Below, piece by piece: positions 1 to 32,871 of a stretch of 64,000 nucleotides of DNA (position 1 is its first letter; every line of letters begins with the position of its first letter). The stretch is from assembly GCA_022509025.1 (NCBI GenBank), contig JAFLUB010000007.1:1-64000 (forward strand), given 5' to 3'. Source of the stretch: Oscillospiraceae bacterium (GTDB lineage: Bacteria > Bacillota > Clostridia > UBA1381). Under the pieces are notes generated by a model. The model had not been told where the DNA came from. It saw nothing but the letters and a program-made list of their open reading frames with translations, and ran no database searches. A program made the position numbers and the translations under genes.

Positions 1-21
1 TCCCCGACGCTCTTCCGATCT
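1..21 (+). other. Illumina adapter remnant at contig end
   Basis: The first bases contain GACGCTCTTCCGATCT, the 3' part of the standard TruSeq read-1 adapter. This is library sequence and not genomic. It shows that the assembly ends here, so genes upstream of the OLE locus are not visible. Confidence 0.93.
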
Positions 22-48
22 AAGATTTTATTACAGAATAATACATTC

Positions 49-180
49 AAAGGGGGTGTTGCGTTAAGCAACACCCCCTTCGGGGCTGAATGAATTTAGA
101 TGCAGAATGGATGAAACGAAGCATAATGCGGGAAATACCGCATTATGCCTTTCCATGGTCTGCGCCAAATTGGGCAGCCT
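49..180 (+). repeat. R1 MITE-like palindromic repeat, copy A
   Basis: This copy starts with a perfect hairpin (GGGGGTGTTG and its complement CAACACCCCC at 52-78). The repeat proper follows: its left end is GGGCTG-N4-AATTTAGATGCAGAA, and its right end (to 179) is the inverted, imperfect copy of it (GGGCTGCC-N-AATTTGGCGCAGA read on the minus strand). The interior holds a second hairpin, GCATAATGCGG with its complement. No coding capacity is present. The same hairpin-plus-terminal-repeat arrangement recurs at 48241-48590, and further copies lie at 50230 and 63906. Confidence 0.8.
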
Positions 181-216
181 CTTTTTATTCAATTGCCTGA
201 CTCTTTCCGTCATGCA

Positions 217-245
217 TTGACTTTTTAACGAAAATATGATATATT
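217..245 (+). promoter_or_regulatory. Candidate sigma-A promoter for OLE RNA
   Basis: TTGACT and TATATT are separated by 17 bases, predicting a start near 252. A second TATAAT at 256-261 lacks a good -35 box. The position just before the structured RNA and just after the R1 repeat suggests that the RNA operon has its own promoter here. Confidence 0.55.
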
Positions 246-251
246 GAATAT

Positions 252-890
252 TAAATATAATAGTGGTGCAGTATCCTAGTCAGTACGGCTTTTCGGAAAG
301 CGGGCCTAAAAATCCGCCAAATGGCACATCGATGAAGTTTCTGGTGTTTTGCTTTGAACGCCCAGTTCGGGGCTGATGCTGGGAGTTAAGGTTTAGGGGC
401 GGTTTCCAACGGCATGGTTACCTTTCCCCCTTTTCCGTGGAGGCCTGTGACTGTGGCGGCCTAGACCCCCTAAGGGAGCAAGTCGTTACGGCACAGGGGA
501 AAACCTGTTTCGCGGTTAGTAATCCGCCGCCTCACAAGGGCAGCGGTATGAATGCTGTGGGCAGCGTAGCCAGCCTTGAGTGGATATGGCGGATACACGA
601 ACCAAACCCCCGCGCGGCGTAGGCCTTGCTGCAAAGGGGTATCGCGTGTTGAAACCATGTTCTGCAAAAGAGGATACGGAGAGCTATGGCTGTTTGGGAA
701 AACTTCTAGGCTGTCATAAAATGGATGAACAGAGGATTGCAGTGCGGACTAAGTGGCAATCCGGCAACCGTAAAAAGTGTGCGCCTTTAAAGGGAAACCG
801 CTTCTTCGGCGACGATAAAGCAGGCGCTCGGGAAAGCCTGCCGGACCTAAGCCGCAAACTTTACTCTGTTCATTACCCTATTTATATTTT
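252..890 (+). ncRNA. ole: OLE RNA (ornate, large, extremophilic RNA)
   Basis: About 640 bases of GC-richer, stem-rich sequence without a convincing reading frame lie directly upstream of an oapA homologue, dxs and tlyA. This is the context known for OLE RNA (length about 600 nt) in Halalkalibacterium and anaerobic Clostridia. Visible elements include local stems such as GCAGGC/GCCTGC near the 3' end (820-843) and long purine-rich joining segments. In the family, OLE RNA forms a membrane ribonucleoprotein with OapA and other Oap proteins and affects tolerance to magnesium, ethanol and cold. The assignment rests on context, length and structure-like composition, not on a covariance search. Both ends are approximate. 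Short frames at 437-622 and 580-897 cross it but have no ribosome binding site or family resemblance. Confidence 0.85.
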
Positions 891-939
891 TATATAATAT
901 GAAAATAATTATATTATGATATAAAAGGAGAGAAATTAC

Positions 940-1530
940 TTGGATAAATCCGGCATACCGAAACGAAAAAAATTTAAGGTGCCGCGCCCCGACTCAAACG
1001 TATCTACCTCGCATAAGTGGACTGTTATTGTACTTTTGCTGTCATTTATACTTTCAGTATTTTTCAGCTTCATAACATCGGCGGCGATGCAGTCAATTAC
1101 GATATTTTTCGCGTTTATATTACTTCTTGTCATAATTGCGGTAAATATACTTTTTGACATGGTAGGCACAGCTGTTCAGTCTGCCGAGGAGAAACCGTTC
1201 CATTCTCTTGCGTCAAGAAAAGTACCGGGCGCGAGGGAAAGTATTTCGGTGATCCGTCATGCTCCGCAGCTTGCGAATATGTGCTGTGATGTCATAGGAG
1301 ATATAGCGGGTATTATATCCGGCGCGACCACCGCGCTTATTGTGACGGAGCTTGTGGCAATGTTTGAACTCAAAGGTATGCTTCCCAGCCTTATTCTTAC
1401 GGGTCTCGTGGGAGCGCTTACCATAGGAGGAAAGGCGATGTCCAAAGGAATTTCAATGCAAAACGGTAATTCTATTGTATTTATCGTCGGAAAAATGATG
1501 TACTTTTTCAGACATTTGAAAAAACACTGA
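940..1530 (+). CDS. oapA: OLE-associated membrane protein OapA
   Basis: A 196-residue integral membrane protein expected to anchor OLE RNA to the cytoplasmic membrane. The N-terminus is strongly basic (PKRKKFKVPR). It is followed by paired hydrophobic segments at about 27-47 and 50-72, a basic loop, and two or more helices at about 120-165. A DVIGD motif near residue 118 matches the aspartate pair conserved in OapA. The start is TTG, placed 7 bases after AAAGGAGAG; no upstream ATG fits, and the next in-frame ATG would remove the first helix. Its stop overlaps an in-frame ATG of the dxs reading frame (TGATG), so it is co-transcribed with dxs. The assignment comes from sequence character plus its position directly after OLE RNA. 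Confidence 0.85.
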   Translation: MDKSGIPKRKKFKVPRPDSNVSTSHKWTVIVLLLSFILSVFFSFITSAAMQSITIFFAFILLLVIIAVNILFDMVGTAVQSAEEKPFHSLASRKVPGARESISVIRHAPQLANMCCDVIGDIAGIISGATTALIVTELVAMFELKGMLPSLILTGLVGALTIGGKAMSKGISMQNGNSIVFIVGKMMYFFRHLKKH

Positions 1531-1550
1531 TGATATACGAGGCTTTGGTG

Positions 1551-3392
1551 ATGAATAAACTTTTAGACAATATCAATTCACCTGATGATTTGAAAAAACT
1601 TAATATAGACGAGCTTGCCGCACTATGCGGTGAGATTCGTGAGTTTTTGATTGACAGTGTATCAAAAACCGGCGGTCATCTTGCCTCCAATCTCGGAGTG
1701 GTTGAGCTGACCGTTGCTCTTCACACTGTTTTTAACGTTCCCCAGGATAAAATTATTTTTGACGTAGGTCATCAGTCATATGTTCATAAAATCCTCACAG
1801 GCAGAAAGGATAGCTTTTCAACGCTGCGCCAATTCGGAGGACTGTCAGGATTTCCAAAACGGTCAGAAAGCGATTGTGACGCGTTTGACACAGGACACAG
1901 TTCAACCTCTGTTTCCGCAGCTCTCGGACTCGCGCGCGCGCGCGACCTTGCCGGTGATGATTTTAATATCATAACCGTATTCGGCGACGGAGCGCTTACG
2001 GGCGGCATGATGTATGAAGCGATGAATGACGCGGGGCATGTTAAAACTCCGCTGATACTTGTTCTCAACGACAATGCAATGTCTATATCAAAGAATGTCG
2101 GCGCTGTTGCAAAGCACCTCAGGAAGCTTCGCATGTCTCCTGTCTACTTCCGCTCAAAGCATGTGGTTGAAAGTGTCCTGAAAAAAATACCGCTGTTGGG
2201 AAAAGTATCGGTAAATATTATAAAAAAGATAAAAAGATTCTTCCGCAGACTCGTTATACCCACAACAATGTTTGACGATATGGGATTCACATATATGGGG
2301 CCTGTGGACGGTCATGACATAAAAGCTATGATACAGTGCTTCGAATACGTCAAGGACGAGAAAAAGCCTGTGTTTATACACATTCAGACGAAAAAAGGCA
2401 AGGGGTACGCGCACGCGGAATCAAATCCGCGCAAATTCCACGGAATATCCCCGTTTGACATAGCTACCGGAGAAACTAAAGAAGGAAGCGAAACATATAG
2501 TTCACGGTTCGGCTCTGTCCTGGTAAACCTCGCGCAAGATAATGATAAAATTGTGGCTATAACTGGCGCAATGCCTGACGGAACCGGGCTTGAGGAATTT
2601 GAAAAGCATTTCAAAAACAGATTTTTCGATGTCGGAATTGCGGAGCAGCACGGTGTAACGCTCTCTGCCGGACTTGCAGCAGGCGGCTATATACCTGTTA
2701 TACCATTGTATTCCTCATTTTTACAGCGCGCTTACGACCAGGTTCTTCACGACGTGTGTCTGCAAAATCTGCACGTTGTGTTCCCTATCGACCGCGCCGG
2801 TATTGTCGGTCAGGACGGAGAAACACATCAGGGCATTTATGATATATCATATCTTTCACATATGCCGAATATGACAATACTTTCCCCTGCAACTCTGGGT
2901 CAGCTTGAGGAAATGCTTAAATTTGCCATAAACGACTTCAACGCTCCCATCGCTATCCGCTATCCGCGCGGCGGTACGGAAGCGGATAATATTCCGCAGG
3001 ACTTTACTTTGGGAAAAGCTCAGCTTGTGCAGGAAGGTAACGATGTTACAATAGTCGCGTCCGGCAGAATGGTGAAGCGCGCCGAGGAGGTTTCGGCTCT
3101 CGCCGGTAAATCAGTGGAGATACTTGCTCTGCCAACGATAAAGCCACTTGATACTGAGGCTATAATAGCCTCAGCTTTAAAGACAAAACACCTCATAACC
3201 ATAGAAGACAACGTTAAAACAGGCGGCATGGGAAGCATGGTGGCAGCATTGCTTGAAGAAACACATACGGAATGCGAGTTTAAGATATTCGCTTTCCCGG
3301 ATACTCCGATTACTCACGGAACAGTTGAGGAACTGGACAAGCTTTACGGACTTGACGCGATAGCAATAGCATCAAAAATACAGGAATTATAA
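1551..3392 (+). CDS. dxs: 1-deoxy-D-xylulose-5-phosphate synthase
   Basis: A thiamine-diphosphate transketolase-like enzyme that condenses pyruvate with glyceraldehyde 3-phosphate. This is the first step of the MEP isoprenoid pathway and also feeds thiamine and pyridoxal synthesis. The protein is 613 residues, the usual length. Landmarks are SKTGGHLASNLGVVEL near the N-terminus, the ThDP motif GDGALTGGMMYEAMN and the transketolase C-half (GIAEQHGVTLSAGLA, DRAGIVGQDGETHQG). The start at 1551 is chosen because MNKLLDNINSPDDLKKL aligns with the family N-terminus and GAGG lies upstream. An in-frame ATG at 1530 overlaps the oapA stop and could serve through translational coupling. With ispE downstream, it makes this an isoprenoid operon. 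Confidence 0.96.
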   Translation: MNKLLDNINSPDDLKKLNIDELAALCGEIREFLIDSVSKTGGHLASNLGVVELTVALHTVFNVPQDKIIFDVGHQSYVHKILTGRKDSFSTLRQFGGLSGFPKRSESDCDAFDTGHSSTSVSAALGLARARDLAGDDFNIITVFGDGALTGGMMYEAMNDAGHVKTPLILVLNDNAMSISKNVGAVAKHLRKLRMSPVYFRSKHVVESVLKKIPLLGKVSVNIIKKIKRFFRRLVIPTTMFDDMGFTYMGPVDGHDIKAMIQCFEYVKDEKKPVFIHIQTKKGKGYAHAESNPRKFHGISPFDIATGETKEGSETYSSRFGSVLVNLAQDNDKIVAITGAMPDGTGLEEFEKHFKNRFFDVGIAEQHGVTLSAGLAAGGYIPVIPLYSSFLQRAYDQVLHDVCLQNLHVVFPIDRAGIVGQDGETHQGIYDISYLSHMPNMTILSPATLGQLEEMLKFAINDFNAPIAIRYPRGGTEADNIPQDFTLGKAQLVQEGNDVTIVASGRMVKRAEEVSALAGKSVEILALPTIKPLDTEAIIASALKTKHLITIEDNVKTGGMGSMVAALLEETHTECEFKIFAFPDTPITHGTVEELDKLYGLDAIAIASKIQEL

Positions 3393-3500
3393 CGTGAAAA
3401 ACAAACAAACGGCGCATCTTACCCTTTTTCGGGACCCCGAGTATCAGCATACGTCAGCGTCCCTCAAAATGGCAATCTGTTTGTTTCTTTCCCACGTTAC
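3388..3500 (-). repeat. R3 palindromic repeat, copy 1
   Basis: It begins within the dxs stop region with ATAACGTGAAA and ends with TTTCCCACGTTAC, so the ends are inverted. The interior (CGGGACCCC, ATACGTC, CCTCAAAATGGCAATCTG) matches the reverse complement of the repeats at 59150-59278 and 60948-61096. A second ACGTTAC follows at 3503. No open reading frame is present. It separates dxs from tlyA. Confidence 0.75.
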
Positions 3501-3546
3501 ACACGTTACAATTTGCGCCGTTGCACGGCGGAATGGAGAGTAAAAA

Positions 3547-4353
3547 ATGGGAAAAATAAGACTTGACGCTCTGCTTGTAAAAAACGGGCTGACTCAGAGC
3601 CGCGAAAGAGCAAAGGCTCTCATAATGGCAGGACAGGTATATATAGATAATCAGAAATGTGACAAAGCCGGTCAGATGGTAGACGAAGATACCGTAAAGC
3701 CTGAGATACGCGGTGAGACGCTAAAATATGTCAGCCGCGGCGGGCTAAAGCTTGAAAAGGCTATGAAGGAATTCCCTATTACTCTCGAAGGCAAAACCAC
3801 AATGGATATAGGCGCATCTACAGGCGGTTTTACAGACTGTATGCTTCAGAACGGAGCAAAAAAGGTGTTTGCGGTTGATGTCGGATACGGACAGTTCGCA
3901 TGGAAGCTCCGTCAGGACGAGAGAGTAGTTAACATGGAGCGCACCAACATACGCTATGTCACTCCCGAGGATATAGGCGGTGAAATTATAGATTTCGCGT
4001 CTATTGACGTATCATTTATATCACTTACGCTTGTTCTCCCGGTCGCGAAAAATCTTCTCGGCGAAGACGGAGAAATAGTGGCTCTTATAAAGCCCCAGTT
4101 TGAGGCGGGACGTGAGCAAGTCGGGAAAAAGGGTGTTGTGCGCGATATCAACGTGCATTTTGACGTTATAAAGAAAGTACTTGATTTTTCGGAGAGTATA
4201 GGACTTCACACAGCGGGACTTTCATATTCACCCATCAAAGGACCTGAGGGAAATATCGAATATCTTGCGTACATCAAAAAGAAAGACTGTGATGTTAAAA
4301 TTACCGATGAAATTATAAAAGAGATTGTAGACAAATCACACACGGCTCTTTAA
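3547..4353 (+). CDS. tlyA: TlyA family 2'-O-ribose rRNA methyltransferase
   Basis: A 268-residue protein with an N-terminal S4 RNA-binding domain (residues about 5-65, starting RLDALLVKNGLTQSRERA) and an FtsJ/RrmJ-type SAM-dependent methyltransferase domain (TMDIGASTGGFTDCMLQNGA is motif I, DFASIDVSFISL is motif IV). TlyA enzymes methylate the ribose of rRNA cytidines at the subunit interface; some homologues are annotated as hemolysin A or YqxC. GGAGAG precedes the ATG. Its position after oapA and dxs matches the gene order around OLE loci, where this gene (yqxC) also follows dxs. Confidence 0.92.
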   Translation: MGKIRLDALLVKNGLTQSRERAKALIMAGQVYIDNQKCDKAGQMVDEDTVKPEIRGETLKYVSRGGLKLEKAMKEFPITLEGKTTMDIGASTGGFTDCMLQNGAKKVFAVDVGYGQFAWKLRQDERVVNMERTNIRYVTPEDIGGEIIDFASIDVSFISLTLVLPVAKNLLGEDGEIVALIKPQFEAGREQVGKKGVVRDINVHFDVIKKVLDFSESIGLHTAGLSYSPIKGPEGNIEYLAYIKKKDCDVKITDEIIKEIVDKSHTAL

Positions 4354-4381: not shown

Positions 4382-5263
4382 ATGCTGGCCGAAGATACAG
4401 TTATTGCGGGAAAACGCGCAATGTCGCGTTCATATGCAAAGATAAATCTTACGCTTGATGTGCTCGGTAAACGCGCGAACGGATACCATGACATTAAAAT
4501 GATTATGCAGACGGTTTCTTTGTTTGATCTTGTTCTGACAGATAAAACCGACAACGGTATATCAGTTTCGACAAACCTGCGTTATCTCCCTACCAATGAA
4601 AGAAATATAGCCTATAAAGCGGCGCTGGAATTTTTCAGGAATACAGGTATCAGAGGCGGAGCAAAAATCATGATTCATAAAAATATTCCTGTCGCAGCCG
4701 GACTTGCCGGCGGCAGCGGAAACTGCGCCGCAGTACTTGTTGCATTGAATATGCTGTATAATAATCCGCTTTCTTCAGATAAACTCAAGGAAATAGGCGC
4801 GTCTTTAGGCGCTGATGTTCCCTATTGTTTTGATGGAGGCACGCAGATGGCTGAGGGAATAGGTGAAATACTCTCTCCCCTGCCGTCCATGCCGGATGCT
4901 TATCTGCTGCTGGTTAAACCACAGATAAATGTTTCAACTGCCGCGGTATATGAAAAAATCGACAGCGCGGAAATTGCCGTCCGCCCTGATACGGATAGTA
5001 TGATTATGGCTCTCAGAGATAAAAATATAAGACAGGTAGCGGATAACCTGTGCAACGTTATGGAGTCTGTCACCGAAAAAATGTATCCTATTATCGGCGG
5101 TATTAAAAAGAAAATGATTATGAACGGCGCAATAGGCGCAGTAATGAGCGGGTCAGGTCCTACTGTGTTCGGAATTTTTGATGATTTTGAAACGGCAAAA
5201 AAAAGCGCAGACAGCTTTTCGATGCAATTTAAGGATGTTTTTCTTACCCGAACCATGAATTAG
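4382..5263 (+). CDS. ispE: 4-diphosphocytidyl-2-C-methyl-D-erythritol kinase
   Basis: A GHMP-family kinase that phosphorylates CDP-methylerythritol, the fourth step of the MEP pathway. At 293 residues it is typical. SYAKINLTLDVLGKRANGYHDI is the substrate-binding N-terminus, VAAGLAGGSGNCAAVL the glycine-rich ATP motif and GAVMSGSGPTVFG the third GHMP motif. GGAAGGAGAG lies a normal distance before ATG 4382; an internal ATG at 4421 would give a form closer to the shortest homologues. Together with dxs it supplies two non-adjacent MEP steps within one OLE-linked operon. Confidence 0.95.
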   Translation: MLAEDTVIAGKRAMSRSYAKINLTLDVLGKRANGYHDIKMIMQTVSLFDLVLTDKTDNGISVSTNLRYLPTNERNIAYKAALEFFRNTGIRGGAKIMIHKNIPVAAGLAGGSGNCAAVLVALNMLYNNPLSSDKLKEIGASLGADVPYCFDGGTQMAEGIGEILSPLPSMPDAYLLLVKPQINVSTAAVYEKIDSAEIAVRPDTDSMIMALRDKNIRQVADNLCNVMESVTEKMYPIIGGIKKKMIMNGAIGAVMSGSGPTVFGIFDDFETAKKSADSFSMQFKDVFLTRTMN

Positions 5264-5283
5264 TTGCAAAGGAGGTGCCGGGA

Positions 5284-6063
5284 ATGGATAAGGATATCAA
5301 TAATACAGATTTTAATGGAGATACTCCGGATAATGAATCTTTATATGATGGAAATGATAAATTTGACGAAGATGATGTAATTGACGAAGATTACGAAGAA
5401 GAGGTTTCTGATGATAATATATCGGACAAAGATAAACTTTCTAAAAACAATCATTTTAGAAATCTCAAAAAAGACTTATCGTCACGTTTCGTTAAAATTT
5501 CCTGTTTGATTTACGCGGCTGTATTGTTTGCCGCATTTACTTTCGGGTATGTCACTCCCGGATCCGATTCAGCAATATCAAAAAGACTGGATTCAATGCA
5601 TACAAAAAATAAATTATATGTCCAGACAAAGAAAAATTATGACGAGGCGCTTGAAAAGAAAAAAGACGCATCCGAACAGCTCGGGCACAAACAGCGTGAT
5701 TTGGATAAACTGACACAGTCACAGGATGGACTTCGTAAGCTTTCAGAGAGTAACAGCGCATTAGAAGAAGAAAAGAATACTCTGAGAGAGGAAGTAGAGA
5801 AAAAGCAATCAGAGCTTGAAACATTGAATCTTTCTGTTGCGGAAAAGACAAAAAAGACTGTTACATGGTCTTCGGGCAGATACTCTGTAGGAGAAAATAT
5901 TGCATCAGGCAATTACACCGTTACCGGTTCAGGGAGTATTTCTATAGGTAATTCCGGCAAATCGATTATAAATAAAGCGCTGAATTCATCAGGAGACAAC
6001 ATTGCGCTGAATAACGGCGATGTGATTCAGATAGACGGAACGGCGAAATTTGTTCCGGAATAA
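5284..6063 (+). CDS. Membrane coiled-coil protein, paralogue 1
   Basis: A 259-residue protein of unknown function. Residues 1-50 are highly acidic and probably disordered in the cytoplasm, 70-90 form one transmembrane helix, about 100-190 are a long charged coiled coil, and 195-259 are a small beta-rich domain (GRYSVGENIASGNYTVTGSG, then NGDVIQIDG). That last unit resembles a glycine-rich domain seen in many Firmicute surface proteins. Start ATG 5284 is preferred over the GTG at 5275, because AGGAGGTG lies directly at that GTG and 6 bases before the ATG. It lies 20 bases after ispE and may be co-transcribed. The next gene has the same architecture, so the pair arose by tandem duplication. Confidence 0.8.
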   Translation: MDKDINNTDFNGDTPDNESLYDGNDKFDEDDVIDEDYEEEVSDDNISDKDKLSKNNHFRNLKKDLSSRFVKISCLIYAAVLFAAFTFGYVTPGSDSAISKRLDSMHTKNKLYVQTKKNYDEALEKKKDASEQLGHKQRDLDKLTQSQDGLRKLSESNSALEEEKNTLREEVEKKQSELETLNLSVAEKTKKTVTWSSGRYSVGENIASGNYTVTGSGSISIGNSGKSIINKALNSSGDNIALNNGDVIQIDGTAKFVPE

Positions 6064-6087
6064 ATTACAGAGAAAGGCTGAAATGTA

Positions 6088-6699
6088 ATGAAAAGAGTCT
6101 ATATTATACTAACCTCATCTCTGACAGTTATATTAGCGGCTGTATTTTTCTTTATCGGGTACTCTGTTCCGACAGGACAGGAGGCATCAAAACAGCTACA
6201 GCAGGAAATTGTGATTTTAGATACGGATATAGCTAAAATCAATGCGGAAACAGGAGAAATACAGAAGCAGATAGACGATATGGATACACAGCTTGATGCC
6301 AAAAGCGTAATTTCTGACGAATATATGGAGTACAAGAATACACATGATACGCTTGTCAGTGAGATTGGGGAATTAAAGAACCGCTCAGCGCAGCTTGACG
6401 CGGAAATAGAGCAGAGCCGTATTACACTCGAAGAAGCATCCGGAGTAAAAGAGGAAAAAAAGGGCAGGTCATACGCGCTTGAAGCTAATAAAACATACTC
6501 ATGTCCGAATGAGATTCCTGTCGGACGATACACCGTTTCGGGAAGCGGCACATTGGTTATCACCGCGGCTAACGGTAAAATACGCGCGACGCAAAACCTT
6601 GACGTTTCCTATAACAACACCTACACATTTAATTTAGCGGACAAGGAAAGAATTAAATCCAGCGCGGCGATTAATATTACGCAGTTGGTGACAAATTAA
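6088..6699 (+). CDS. Membrane coiled-coil protein, paralogue 2
   Basis: A 203-residue protein sharing layout with the preceding gene but lacking its acidic N-terminal arm. It has a transmembrane helix at 5-26, a coiled coil at about 30-128 and a C-terminal beta domain (IPVGRYTVSGSGTLVITAANG). The helix-first orientation places the coil and beta domain outside the cell. The C-terminal domain is recognisably homologous to that of paralogue 1 (both carry YTVxGSG), while the coil sequences have diverged. GAAAGGCTG lies ahead of the ATG. A strong bidirectional terminator follows. Function unknown; a structural role at the cell surface is only a guess. Confidence 0.78.
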   Translation: MKRVYIILTSSLTVILAAVFFFIGYSVPTGQEASKQLQQEIVILDTDIAKINAETGEIQKQIDDMDTQLDAKSVISDEYMEYKNTHDTLVSEIGELKNRSAQLDAEIEQSRITLEEASGVKEEKKGRSYALEANKTYSCPNEIPVGRYTVSGSGTLVITAANGKIRATQNLDVSYNNTYTFNLADKERIKSSAAINITQLVTN

Positions 6700-6703
6700 C
6701 CAC

Positions 6704-6746
6704 AAATAAAAATATCCATCCGAATGCTGGATGGATATTTTTATTT
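6704..6746. terminator. Bidirectional terminator between ORF 6088 and rplQ
   Basis: A perfect 18-bp inverted repeat (AAATAAAAATATCCATCC at 6704-6721 with its complement at 6729-6746, loop GAATGCT). A-runs on one side and T-runs on the other make it usable on both strands. It ends the OLE-dxs operon and the alpha operon at one convergent point. Confidence 0.9.
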
Positions 6747-6765
6747 CCATAATATAATTTCTACA

Positions 6766-7110
6766 TTAGTCTACAAGCTCAAGAATTGCCATAGGCGCGC
6801 TGTCACCACGACGCGGACCTGTCTGATAAATTCTTGTGTAACCGCCGTTTCTTTCAGCGTACTTAGGAGCAATTTCACTGAAAACCTTTGTTACAACGTC
6901 TTCCTTTGTGATAAACTCCAATGCCTGACGACGAGAATGCAATGTATTAGTTTTGCCAAGAGTAATCATTTTCTCAGCCATACTCTGAGTTTCCTTTGCT
7001 CTTGTCAAAGTAGTTTCAATTCTACCCGTCTCCAAAAAGCTTGTTACGAGATTACGAAGCATAGCTTTTCTCTGATCGGTCGGGCGATTTAACTTTCTTG
7101 TTCCCGGCAT
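6766..7110 (-). CDS. rplQ: 50S ribosomal protein L17
   Basis: A 114-residue L17 of the short bacterial form, starting [20 protein letters not shown]. It is a core protein of the large subunit and the last gene of the alpha operon. GGAGGTAACAGTT precedes the ATG. It begins 16 bases after rpoA, the usual rpoA-rplQ order, and ends just before the shared terminator. Confidence 0.98.
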
Positions 7111-10317: not shown

Positions 10318-10575
10318 TCAATTAAATTCCGACAATGCTTTTCGCACCTCAGAGTTCGTAACCTTTCCCGTTGTCTGCAATTTATTCTGTATAAATTCAG
10401 AAACAGAGTGGCTGCCCTGCAAGTGCTTGAGCTTTTTCTTTTTGGGACGATCCACTTTTCTCAGTTCCCCGTTGGCGAGATATGCGTAATCACCCTCGCG
10501 GGAAAGAACTATAAATAAATCTCCCTTGTCGCGTCCCGCTATGGAACGGACTATTGAACCCTCTATAATATCCAT
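10318..10575 (-). CDS. KOW-domain RNA-binding protein
   Basis: An 85-residue protein with an N-terminal KOW-type fold ([19 protein letters not shown]) like that of L14e/L27e-type ribosomal proteins, then a basic stretch ([12 protein letters not shown]) and a short helical tail. Such genes occur between map and infA in many Clostridia and are presumed to bind rRNA; their exact role is not settled. It starts 9 bases after map and precedes infA by 40 bases, so it is made with the translation machinery. Confidence 0.85.
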
Positions 10576-23016: not shown

Positions 23017-23364
23017 ACTTTTCCCTCCTTGAAAAAATTTTATTGTGTTGTAATCTGCACGACAGCGCTTAAGAAAATTGCACACACCGCCGGGTGTTTC
23101 GCACCACCCTTAAAGAAAACCCGAACATATTACTTATATATTCGGGCAAAGTTAGTCAATTTTCACCGCGCGCTTCCCTTGTGCCGCCACTAAAGACCGC
23201 AACTCAAACACAGATATAGCGCGCGTATACTTAACTGCCGCCCGGTTTCATGAATCGGACTCACTCCGCGGAAAAACCGGCTTCTTATGAGCCGCAACCT
23301 CCCGTTTCATCGTTTATCAGTCCTGTTATGCGAGGCGCTTTTTTCACTCGCATAAAGTCACAAC
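23017..23364 (-). promoter_or_regulatory. S10 operon structured 5' leader
   Basis: About 350 bases of untranslated leader between the rpsJ promoter and its ATG. Hairpins visible on the minus strand are TGCGAG/CTCGCA near the 5' end, an arm with GCCGGTTTTTCCGCGG and GAAACCGGGCGGC in the middle, and the terminator-like stem at 23120-23146. GGGTG/CACCC pairing follows near 23094-23110. The arrangement resembles ribosomal-protein attenuators, but the ligand cannot be told by eye. Confidence 0.6.
23112..23146 (-). terminator. Candidate attenuator hairpin in the S10 leader
   Basis: On the minus strand CCCGAATAT pairs with ATGTTCGGG (9 bp including one G-T pair, 9-base loop), followed at once by TTTTCTTT. 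It stands about 220 bases after the predicted start and 96 bases before rpsJ, so it could stop transcription before the operon. Confidence 0.65.
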
Positions 23365-32226: not shown

Positions 32227-32400
32227 ATGTCTGAAGTAAGAGTAAAAGATAATGAATCATTGGACAGCGCGCTTCGCAGATTTAAGCGTCAATGCGCAAA
32301 GTCAGGTGTTATGTCTGAAATCAGAAAGCGTGAGCATTACGAGAAGCCAAGTGTTAAGCGTAAGAAGAAGTCTGAAGCAGCAAGAAAAAGAAAATTCTGA
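32227..32400 (+). CDS. rpsU: 30S ribosomal protein S21
   Basis: A 57-residue S21 ([20 protein letters not shown] ... [13 protein letters not shown]) that helps mRNA-rRNA pairing at initiation. ATG 32227 follows the purine-rich GGAGGGAGGGG; seven extra residues upstream would span that site. It is followed by yqeY, a common pairing in Firmicutes. Confidence 0.97.
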
Positions 32401-32427: not shown

Positions 32428-32871
32428 ATGTCCTTAAAAGAAAAATTGGCTCAGGACTTGAAAGAGTCGATGAAAAACAAGGACATTGTCCGTAAAAGTA
32501 CTGTACAGCTTGTCAGAACAGCTATATTACAGGTCGAAAAGGACAAAAAGGTAACTCTTGATGATGAGGATATTTTAGAGGTAATTGCAAAGCAGCTTAA
32601 GCAGCGCAAGGACTCACTTCCCGAATATGAAAAGAGTGGCAGAGAGGATTTAATCTCTCAGTTGAAGCAGGAAATGGAAGTTTTGATGGAATACCTTCCC
32701 AAACAGCTTACAGAGGACGAGCTGAGACCTATTGTTGAAGCCGCTGTTAAATCAGTCGGCGCGACAGGTATGAAGGATATGGGAAAGGTCATGGAAGCTG
32801 TTATGCCTCAGGTTAAGGGCAGAGCAGACGGAAAGGCTATAAGCGCAATCGCTAAGAGCCTGTTTAATTAA
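32428..32871 (+). CDS. yqeY: GatB/YqeY domain protein
   Basis: A 147-residue helical protein related to the C-terminal tRNA-binding domain of GatB (MSLKEKLAQDLKESMKNKDI, DEDILEVIAKQLKQRKDS, GMKDMGKVMEAVMPQVKGRA). Its own role is unclear; a link to tRNA metabolism is assumed from the fold. ATG 32428 has AAGGAG at a normal distance, while ATG 32419 is too close to it. The gene is in an operon with rpsU. Confidence 0.94.
   Translation: MSLKEKLAQDLKESMKNKDIVRKSTVQLVRTAILQVEKDKKVTLDDEDILEVIAKQLKQRKDSLPEYEKSGREDLISQLKQEMEVLMEYLPKQLTEDELRPIVEAAVKSVGATGMKDMGKVMEAVMPQVKGRADGKAISAIAKSLFN

Follow-up and report, generated by a model that had tools for sequence, protein, structure and literature searches.

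The window analyzed here, the first 64,000 nucleotides of contig JAFLUB010000007.1 of an Oscillospiraceae bacterium (GCA_022509025.1), carries near its start a complete and genuine copy of the OLE RNA, an ordinary family member in a gut-type Clostridia bacterium. Taken as a whole, the locus is very probably that of a standard, full-length OLE ribonucleoprotein. This explanation is built on the RNA, its promoter, the genes of all its partners, the conserved sites for OapB and OapC, and the exclusion of MpfA, each observed in this analysis (Table 1); how the complex assembles, where it localizes and what physiological role it plays in this organism, we infer. OLE is one of the largest conserved bacterial RNAs, and its biochemical function is still unsolved. 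OLE itself is known; this copy comes with a family-specific extension of the operon by ispE, a conserved TTG start of oapA and a clean local exclusion between ole-oapA and MpfA.

Table 1. Features of the OLE locus and of related genes in the window
Feature	Positions	Strand	Evidence or remark
Illumina adapter remnant, non-genomic	1-21		exact 17-base match ending at base 21
R1 dispersed repeat	45-190		15-pair hairpin at 48-82, flanked by palindromic modules; 63 partial matches in the genome
OLE promoter TTGACT-17-TATATT	217-245	+	no better site in the region; -10 hexamer preceded by TG
OLE RNA	247-895	+	RF01071, full model; transcript probably from ~252
Shine-Dalgarno AGGAG of oapA	926-930	+	sequence; family-conserved
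oapA, TTG start, 196 aa	940-1530	+	four predicted transmembrane helices; D117xxxD121
dxs	1530-3392	+	TIGR00204, 763 bits; second possible start ATG at 1551
Dispersed repeat between dxs and tlyA	3393-3546		43 genome matches
tlyA (S4 + FtsJ rRNA methyltransferase)	3547-4353	+	TIGR00478, 281 bits
ispE	4382-5263	+	TIGR00154, 233 bits
Membrane/coiled-coil protein, unknown function	5275-6063	+	kept after ispE in the genus
Second related protein, same build	6088-6699	+	likewise kept downstream of ispE in the genus; weakly similar to DivIC
oapB (KOW-type OLE-binding protein)	10318-10575	-	PDB 7k9b 'OLE-associated protein B'
rpsU, ribosomal protein bS21	32227-32400	+	PF01165, 88 bits
yqeY	32428-32871	+	PF09424, 173 bits; directly after rpsU

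The OLE RNA and its promoter

The initial annotation had proposed that a structured RNA of about 640 bases in this region is OLE, and the Rfam covariance model (RF01071; cmscan) recognizes it with 436.4 bits (E 8.1e-125; gathering score 50) over model positions 1-616 of 616, so that the copy is not truncated. Covariance-model search of the 2.49 Mb assembly returned this one copy, and none of 14 control genomes gave a match to RF01071 (0/14). The accompanying claim that the RNA has a promoter of its own was likewise borne out, as the TTGACT-17-TATATT site is conserved in 17/17 family loci, with TTGAC invariant in all 17 and the complete hexamer TTGACT present in 16 of them, and with a TG preceding the -10 hexamer in the family's promoters. 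Beyond the promoter, the upstream sequence of these loci is mostly unrelated between species. Because of the position of this promoter the 5' end of the RNA is predicted to lie near 252, in agreement with the start given earlier. No terminator was seen on the forward strand between the RNA and oapA.

OapA and its relation to CNNM transporters

Lying 45 nt after the end of the OLE model match, oapA is intact and its product shares 58-90% identity with relatives within its family. Its earlier assignment as an OapA homologue is upheld by a CNNM-like fold, by CorB as the best structural match and by the presence of the DxxxD motif. Sequence comparison with the PDB, by single sequence and by profile, found nothing, and only fold comparison succeeded; the match to Pfam CNNM (E 2.5e-4) falls under the cut-off, as it does in published work (PMC11332333). 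The structure model of OapA (pLDDT 79) has long helices at residues 25-50, 55-81, 108-142 and 147-174, and four transmembrane helices are predicted. The top matches to this model are two structures, 7m1t, the archaeal CNNM protein MtCorB (Z 11.2, rmsd 2.5 over 129 residues), and 7m1u (Z 10.9), and CorB 7M1U is also the published structural match of OapA from Halalkalibacterium halodurans (PMC11332333). Foldseek too ranks CorB first, with a weak E-value (0.05); this rank, together with the Z score of the second aligner, suggests the match in fold. Compared with the CNNM transporters MpfA, CorB and CorC, which exceed 400 aa in length, the 196-aa OapA shares the CNNM-like membrane core but is without CBS domains, carries one extra N-terminal helix in its model, as in published OapA, and bears the DxxxD motif (D117 and D121, invariant in 22 sequences), an OapA feature absent from CNNM proteins. 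In one genome of the same order (G025), OLE and oapA, which are normally adjacent, are found on different contigs (L063 around 8554; L173), OLE being located far from the ends of its contig and next to other genes.

Other partner genes

The statement that the window lacks the other Oap proteins proved wrong, since oapB lies in it, flanked by infA and map within the ribosomal protein cluster. Its product had no match in Pfam or NCBIfam at E 0.01, and its identity was decided by the match to 7k9b (E 6.1e-14, residues 6-84 of 85). In the rest of the genome, a gene for an L7Ae protein is found directly before rpsL on another contig (C23:53947-54189), the product of which best matches YbxF (3v7e, 1e-10; also 4lck); the other protein of the L7Ae type, encoded within the nusA-infB operon, best matches YlxQ (3v7q). 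Because of its best match to YbxF and its position before rpsL, the former is assigned as OapC, and the host genome thus encodes all three known essential protein partners of OLE. The window also encodes bS21, for which binding to OLE has been published, and YqeY, so far a preliminary OLE partner (PMC12054373).

The junction at 6699-6766, where the OLE operon meets the end of the ribosomal protein cluster, reflects either a rearrangement or a misassembly. That OLE and oapB lie so near each other (~9 kb) on one contig may accordingly be an artefact of assembly, which we regard as unlikely, if less so than the other alternatives considered below: rplQ is followed by genes other than the OLE operon in 9/9 relatives read, and the gene after the OLE operon also differs from the window in nine relatives, but no repeat was seen at the junction (6.70-6.77 kb) and gene order is generally variable among the genomes compared. 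The presence of oapB in the genome is in any case independent of this question. The window further contains an S10-Clostridia ribosomal protein leader on the reverse strand (23236-23319; RF03136, 44.9 bits).

Protein-binding sites and substructures of the RNA

An alignment of 17 family OLEs reveals a predicted OapB site in P12.2/P13, UUUAA[AU]GGGAAACC with a GGCGAC loop, that is conserved across the family; the window OLE presents UUUAAAGGGAAACC with the GGCGAC loop at this location as a putative OapB-binding site. The J4a/5 kink-turn segment, GGCACAUCGAUGAAG, is invariant in all 17 and is a putative site for OapC. The P6 region of the window OLE (e.g. 385-437) reads CCCCCUUUUCC and features three U-U mismatches, the same pattern being present in nearly all members of the family. 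It differs from P6 of the H. halodurans OLE, for which a CCUCC anti-Shine-Dalgarno mimic has been reported, in that the exact CCUCC is absent; among the 68 OLE loci readable by simple pattern, it occurs in P6 of two and is absent in 66. Published P6 mutants indicate that the exact mimic is dispensable for bS21 binding (PMC12054373). P12.1 is almost lost in the window species, another difference from H. halodurans.

The window OLE is like the variant 1 (TANB77) and variant 2 (RF39) OLE RNAs in coming from uncultured gut-type Bacillota. In those variants, however, P7-P9 are shortened or missing and the OapB site is missing, whereas the window OLE has both and, in contrast to them, is accompanied in its genome by genes for OapB and OapC, and it is therefore assigned to the full-length type.

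The TTG start of oapA

An in-frame stop codon 18 nt upstream and a next in-frame ATG at residue 50 leave TTG as the only available start of oapA, as had been annotated. Among 20 family loci where the oapA start has Shine-Dalgarno support, TTG is used in 19 and GTG in one; at these loci, tlyA and ispE begin with ATG nearly without exception. Beyond the family, TTG is common for oapA in Clostridia, whereas Bacilli loci mostly offer ATG. The earlier suggestion that this weak start keeps OapA limited relative to the RNA is better founded through the conservation of TTG in the family: a conserved TTG that limits OapA relative to an abundant RNA is consistent with the codon usage, but unproven, and the strong Shine-Dalgarno of oapA counts as a caveat. 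It is a tentative idea, which we are inclined to doubt, that selection maintains TTG throughout the lineage to set the OapA:OLE ratio, in which case a strong promoter would give much RNA and the start codon would cap the membrane partner; similarly speculative is the corollary that the non-ATG start would be fixed across many Clostridia and that OapA must not exceed the RNA. Whether the conserved TTG sets the protein-to-RNA ratio is a simple new question. Masking of oapA translation by the 3' end of OLE was considered and found no support, as folding of 870-1000 gave a z of -1.6 and left part of the Shine-Dalgarno unpaired. No published discussion of the oapA start codon was found in a literature search outside the 2006, 2011 and 2018 OLE papers, and because those papers lie outside the search the novelty of the observation is provisional.

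The dxs-tlyA-ispE operon

Gene identification by NCBIfam equivalog/subfamily models confirms the annotated order of oapA, dxs, tlyA and ispE in the operon headed by the RNA. The same order recurs in 19/19 family loci with an OLE-oapA junction. In public genomes, dxs follows oapA in 60 of the 80 loci with an oapA relative, and ispE belongs to the OLE cluster in 8/80, all of them among the nine closest by OapA sequence; in the remaining loci, ispA is often found upstream instead of ispE downstream. Four family members that lack OLE (G017, G018, G022 and G023) have dxs-tlyA-ispE intact, with no ole-oapA before dxs, and the link to ispE therefore belongs to the dxs operon of this family rather than to OLE. 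Of the claim that two MEP-pathway steps are tied to the RNA, it stands that ispE joins dxs in this operon; the tie to the RNA does not, as the three genes persist in those four relatives in its absence and as ispE lies outside the OLE cluster beyond the family and its closest kin. The ispE linkage was rejected as evidence for the function of OLE, since it persists in genomes without ole. In the genome of the window, a dispersed repeat of some 150 bp moreover separates dxs from tlyA. A literature search of the same scope found no report of ispE together with the OLE RNA. The two proteins encoded at 5275-6699 each comprise one membrane helix, a coiled coil and a C-terminal beta-like domain.

The position of OLE at the head of this operon with its own conserved promoter, the lack of a visible forward-strand terminator before oapA and the frequency of dxs as the first gene after oapA in public loci (60/80) would also agree with OLE acting mainly in cis, as a leader that controls oapA-dxs-tlyA-ispE and hence as a regulator of isoprenoid synthesis rather than a trans-acting ribonucleoprotein. 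This is quite improbable, as the genome retains oapB and oapC elsewhere and their binding sites are conserved in the RNA, part of the order has ole-oapA away from dxs, G025 has ole and oapA on different contigs, dxs-tlyA-ispE persists without ole, and published ole deletions affect growth under many stresses (PMC11332333). Least probable is that OLE has decayed here or lost its activity, for which the near loss of P12.1, the U-U mismatches of P6 and the dispersed repeat that interrupts the operon could be cited, but against which stand an end-to-end match of 436 bits, a conserved promoter, an intact oapA with 58-90% identity to its relatives and the recurrence of this P6 pattern in almost the whole family.

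Exclusion between ole-oapA and MpfA

OLE was found in 33 of 41 genomes of one order, and OapA is missing from all eight genomes without an OLE match, such that OLE and OapA co-occur; OapB is retained by most of these eight. Full-length CNNM proteins of the MpfA type (over 400 aa, at least 90 bits) are present in 7/8 OLE-negative and 3/33 OLE-positive genomes (Fisher p 4e-5 for the 41 genomes of one order, uncorrected for relatedness), and no MpfA was found in the genome of the window. The eighth OLE-negative genome (G012) is without a full-length CNNM protein, and because its contig ends inside tlyA, its lack of OLE may be no more than a gap in the assembly. An anticorrelation of OLE and MpfA has been published across Bacillota (PMC11332333) and repeats here within one order. 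The family thereby forms a compact natural comparison, with close relatives that have or lack ole-oapA at one dxs-tlyA-ispE operon, and with transporters of the MpfA type in those that lack ole.

Proposed function and comparison with H. halodurans

In the preferred reading of the locus as a full-length OLE ribonucleoprotein, a sigma-A-type promoter would start the RNA at ~252 and, because no terminator precedes oapA, OLE would make up the 5' portion of a polycistronic transcript that includes this gene. It would then be released by processing, or accumulate through its stability, by analogy with the published H. halodurans case. OapA, a predicted four-helix, CNNM-like membrane protein, would anchor the RNA to the membrane, while OapB would bind P12.2/P13, OapC the P5 kink turn and bS21 P6. 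The complex may help the cell to withstand stress by divalent metals and of other kinds, replacing MpfA-type transporters; this has been published for H. halodurans, and the exclusion within one order supports it here. Counting against this reading are the missing exact CCUCC in P6, the near loss of P12.1 and the weak Foldseek E-value of the OapA match.

The locus resembles that of H. halodurans in the full-length fold of the RNA, in oapA directly downstream with dxs and tlyA next, in the OapB and OapC genes of its genome, and in conserved kink-turn and P12.2/P13 sites. It differs in having ispE after tlyA and no ispA upstream in the window, the relatives having a divergent proB upstream.

The contig end and dispersed repeats

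Positions 22-147 of the window recur at 100% identity on another contig, which accounts for the break in the assembly, and since the contig ends in a dispersed repeat with adapter, the gene upstream of OLE is missing from the window. Several relatives have divergent proB and proA upstream of OLE, and the RNA therefore heads its operon in those genomes. The R1 repeat that had been noted before the promoter is real, as its partial matches across the genome attest. R1 (45-190) and the element at 3393-3546 are two different short dispersed repeats, with 63 and 43 matches, respectively.
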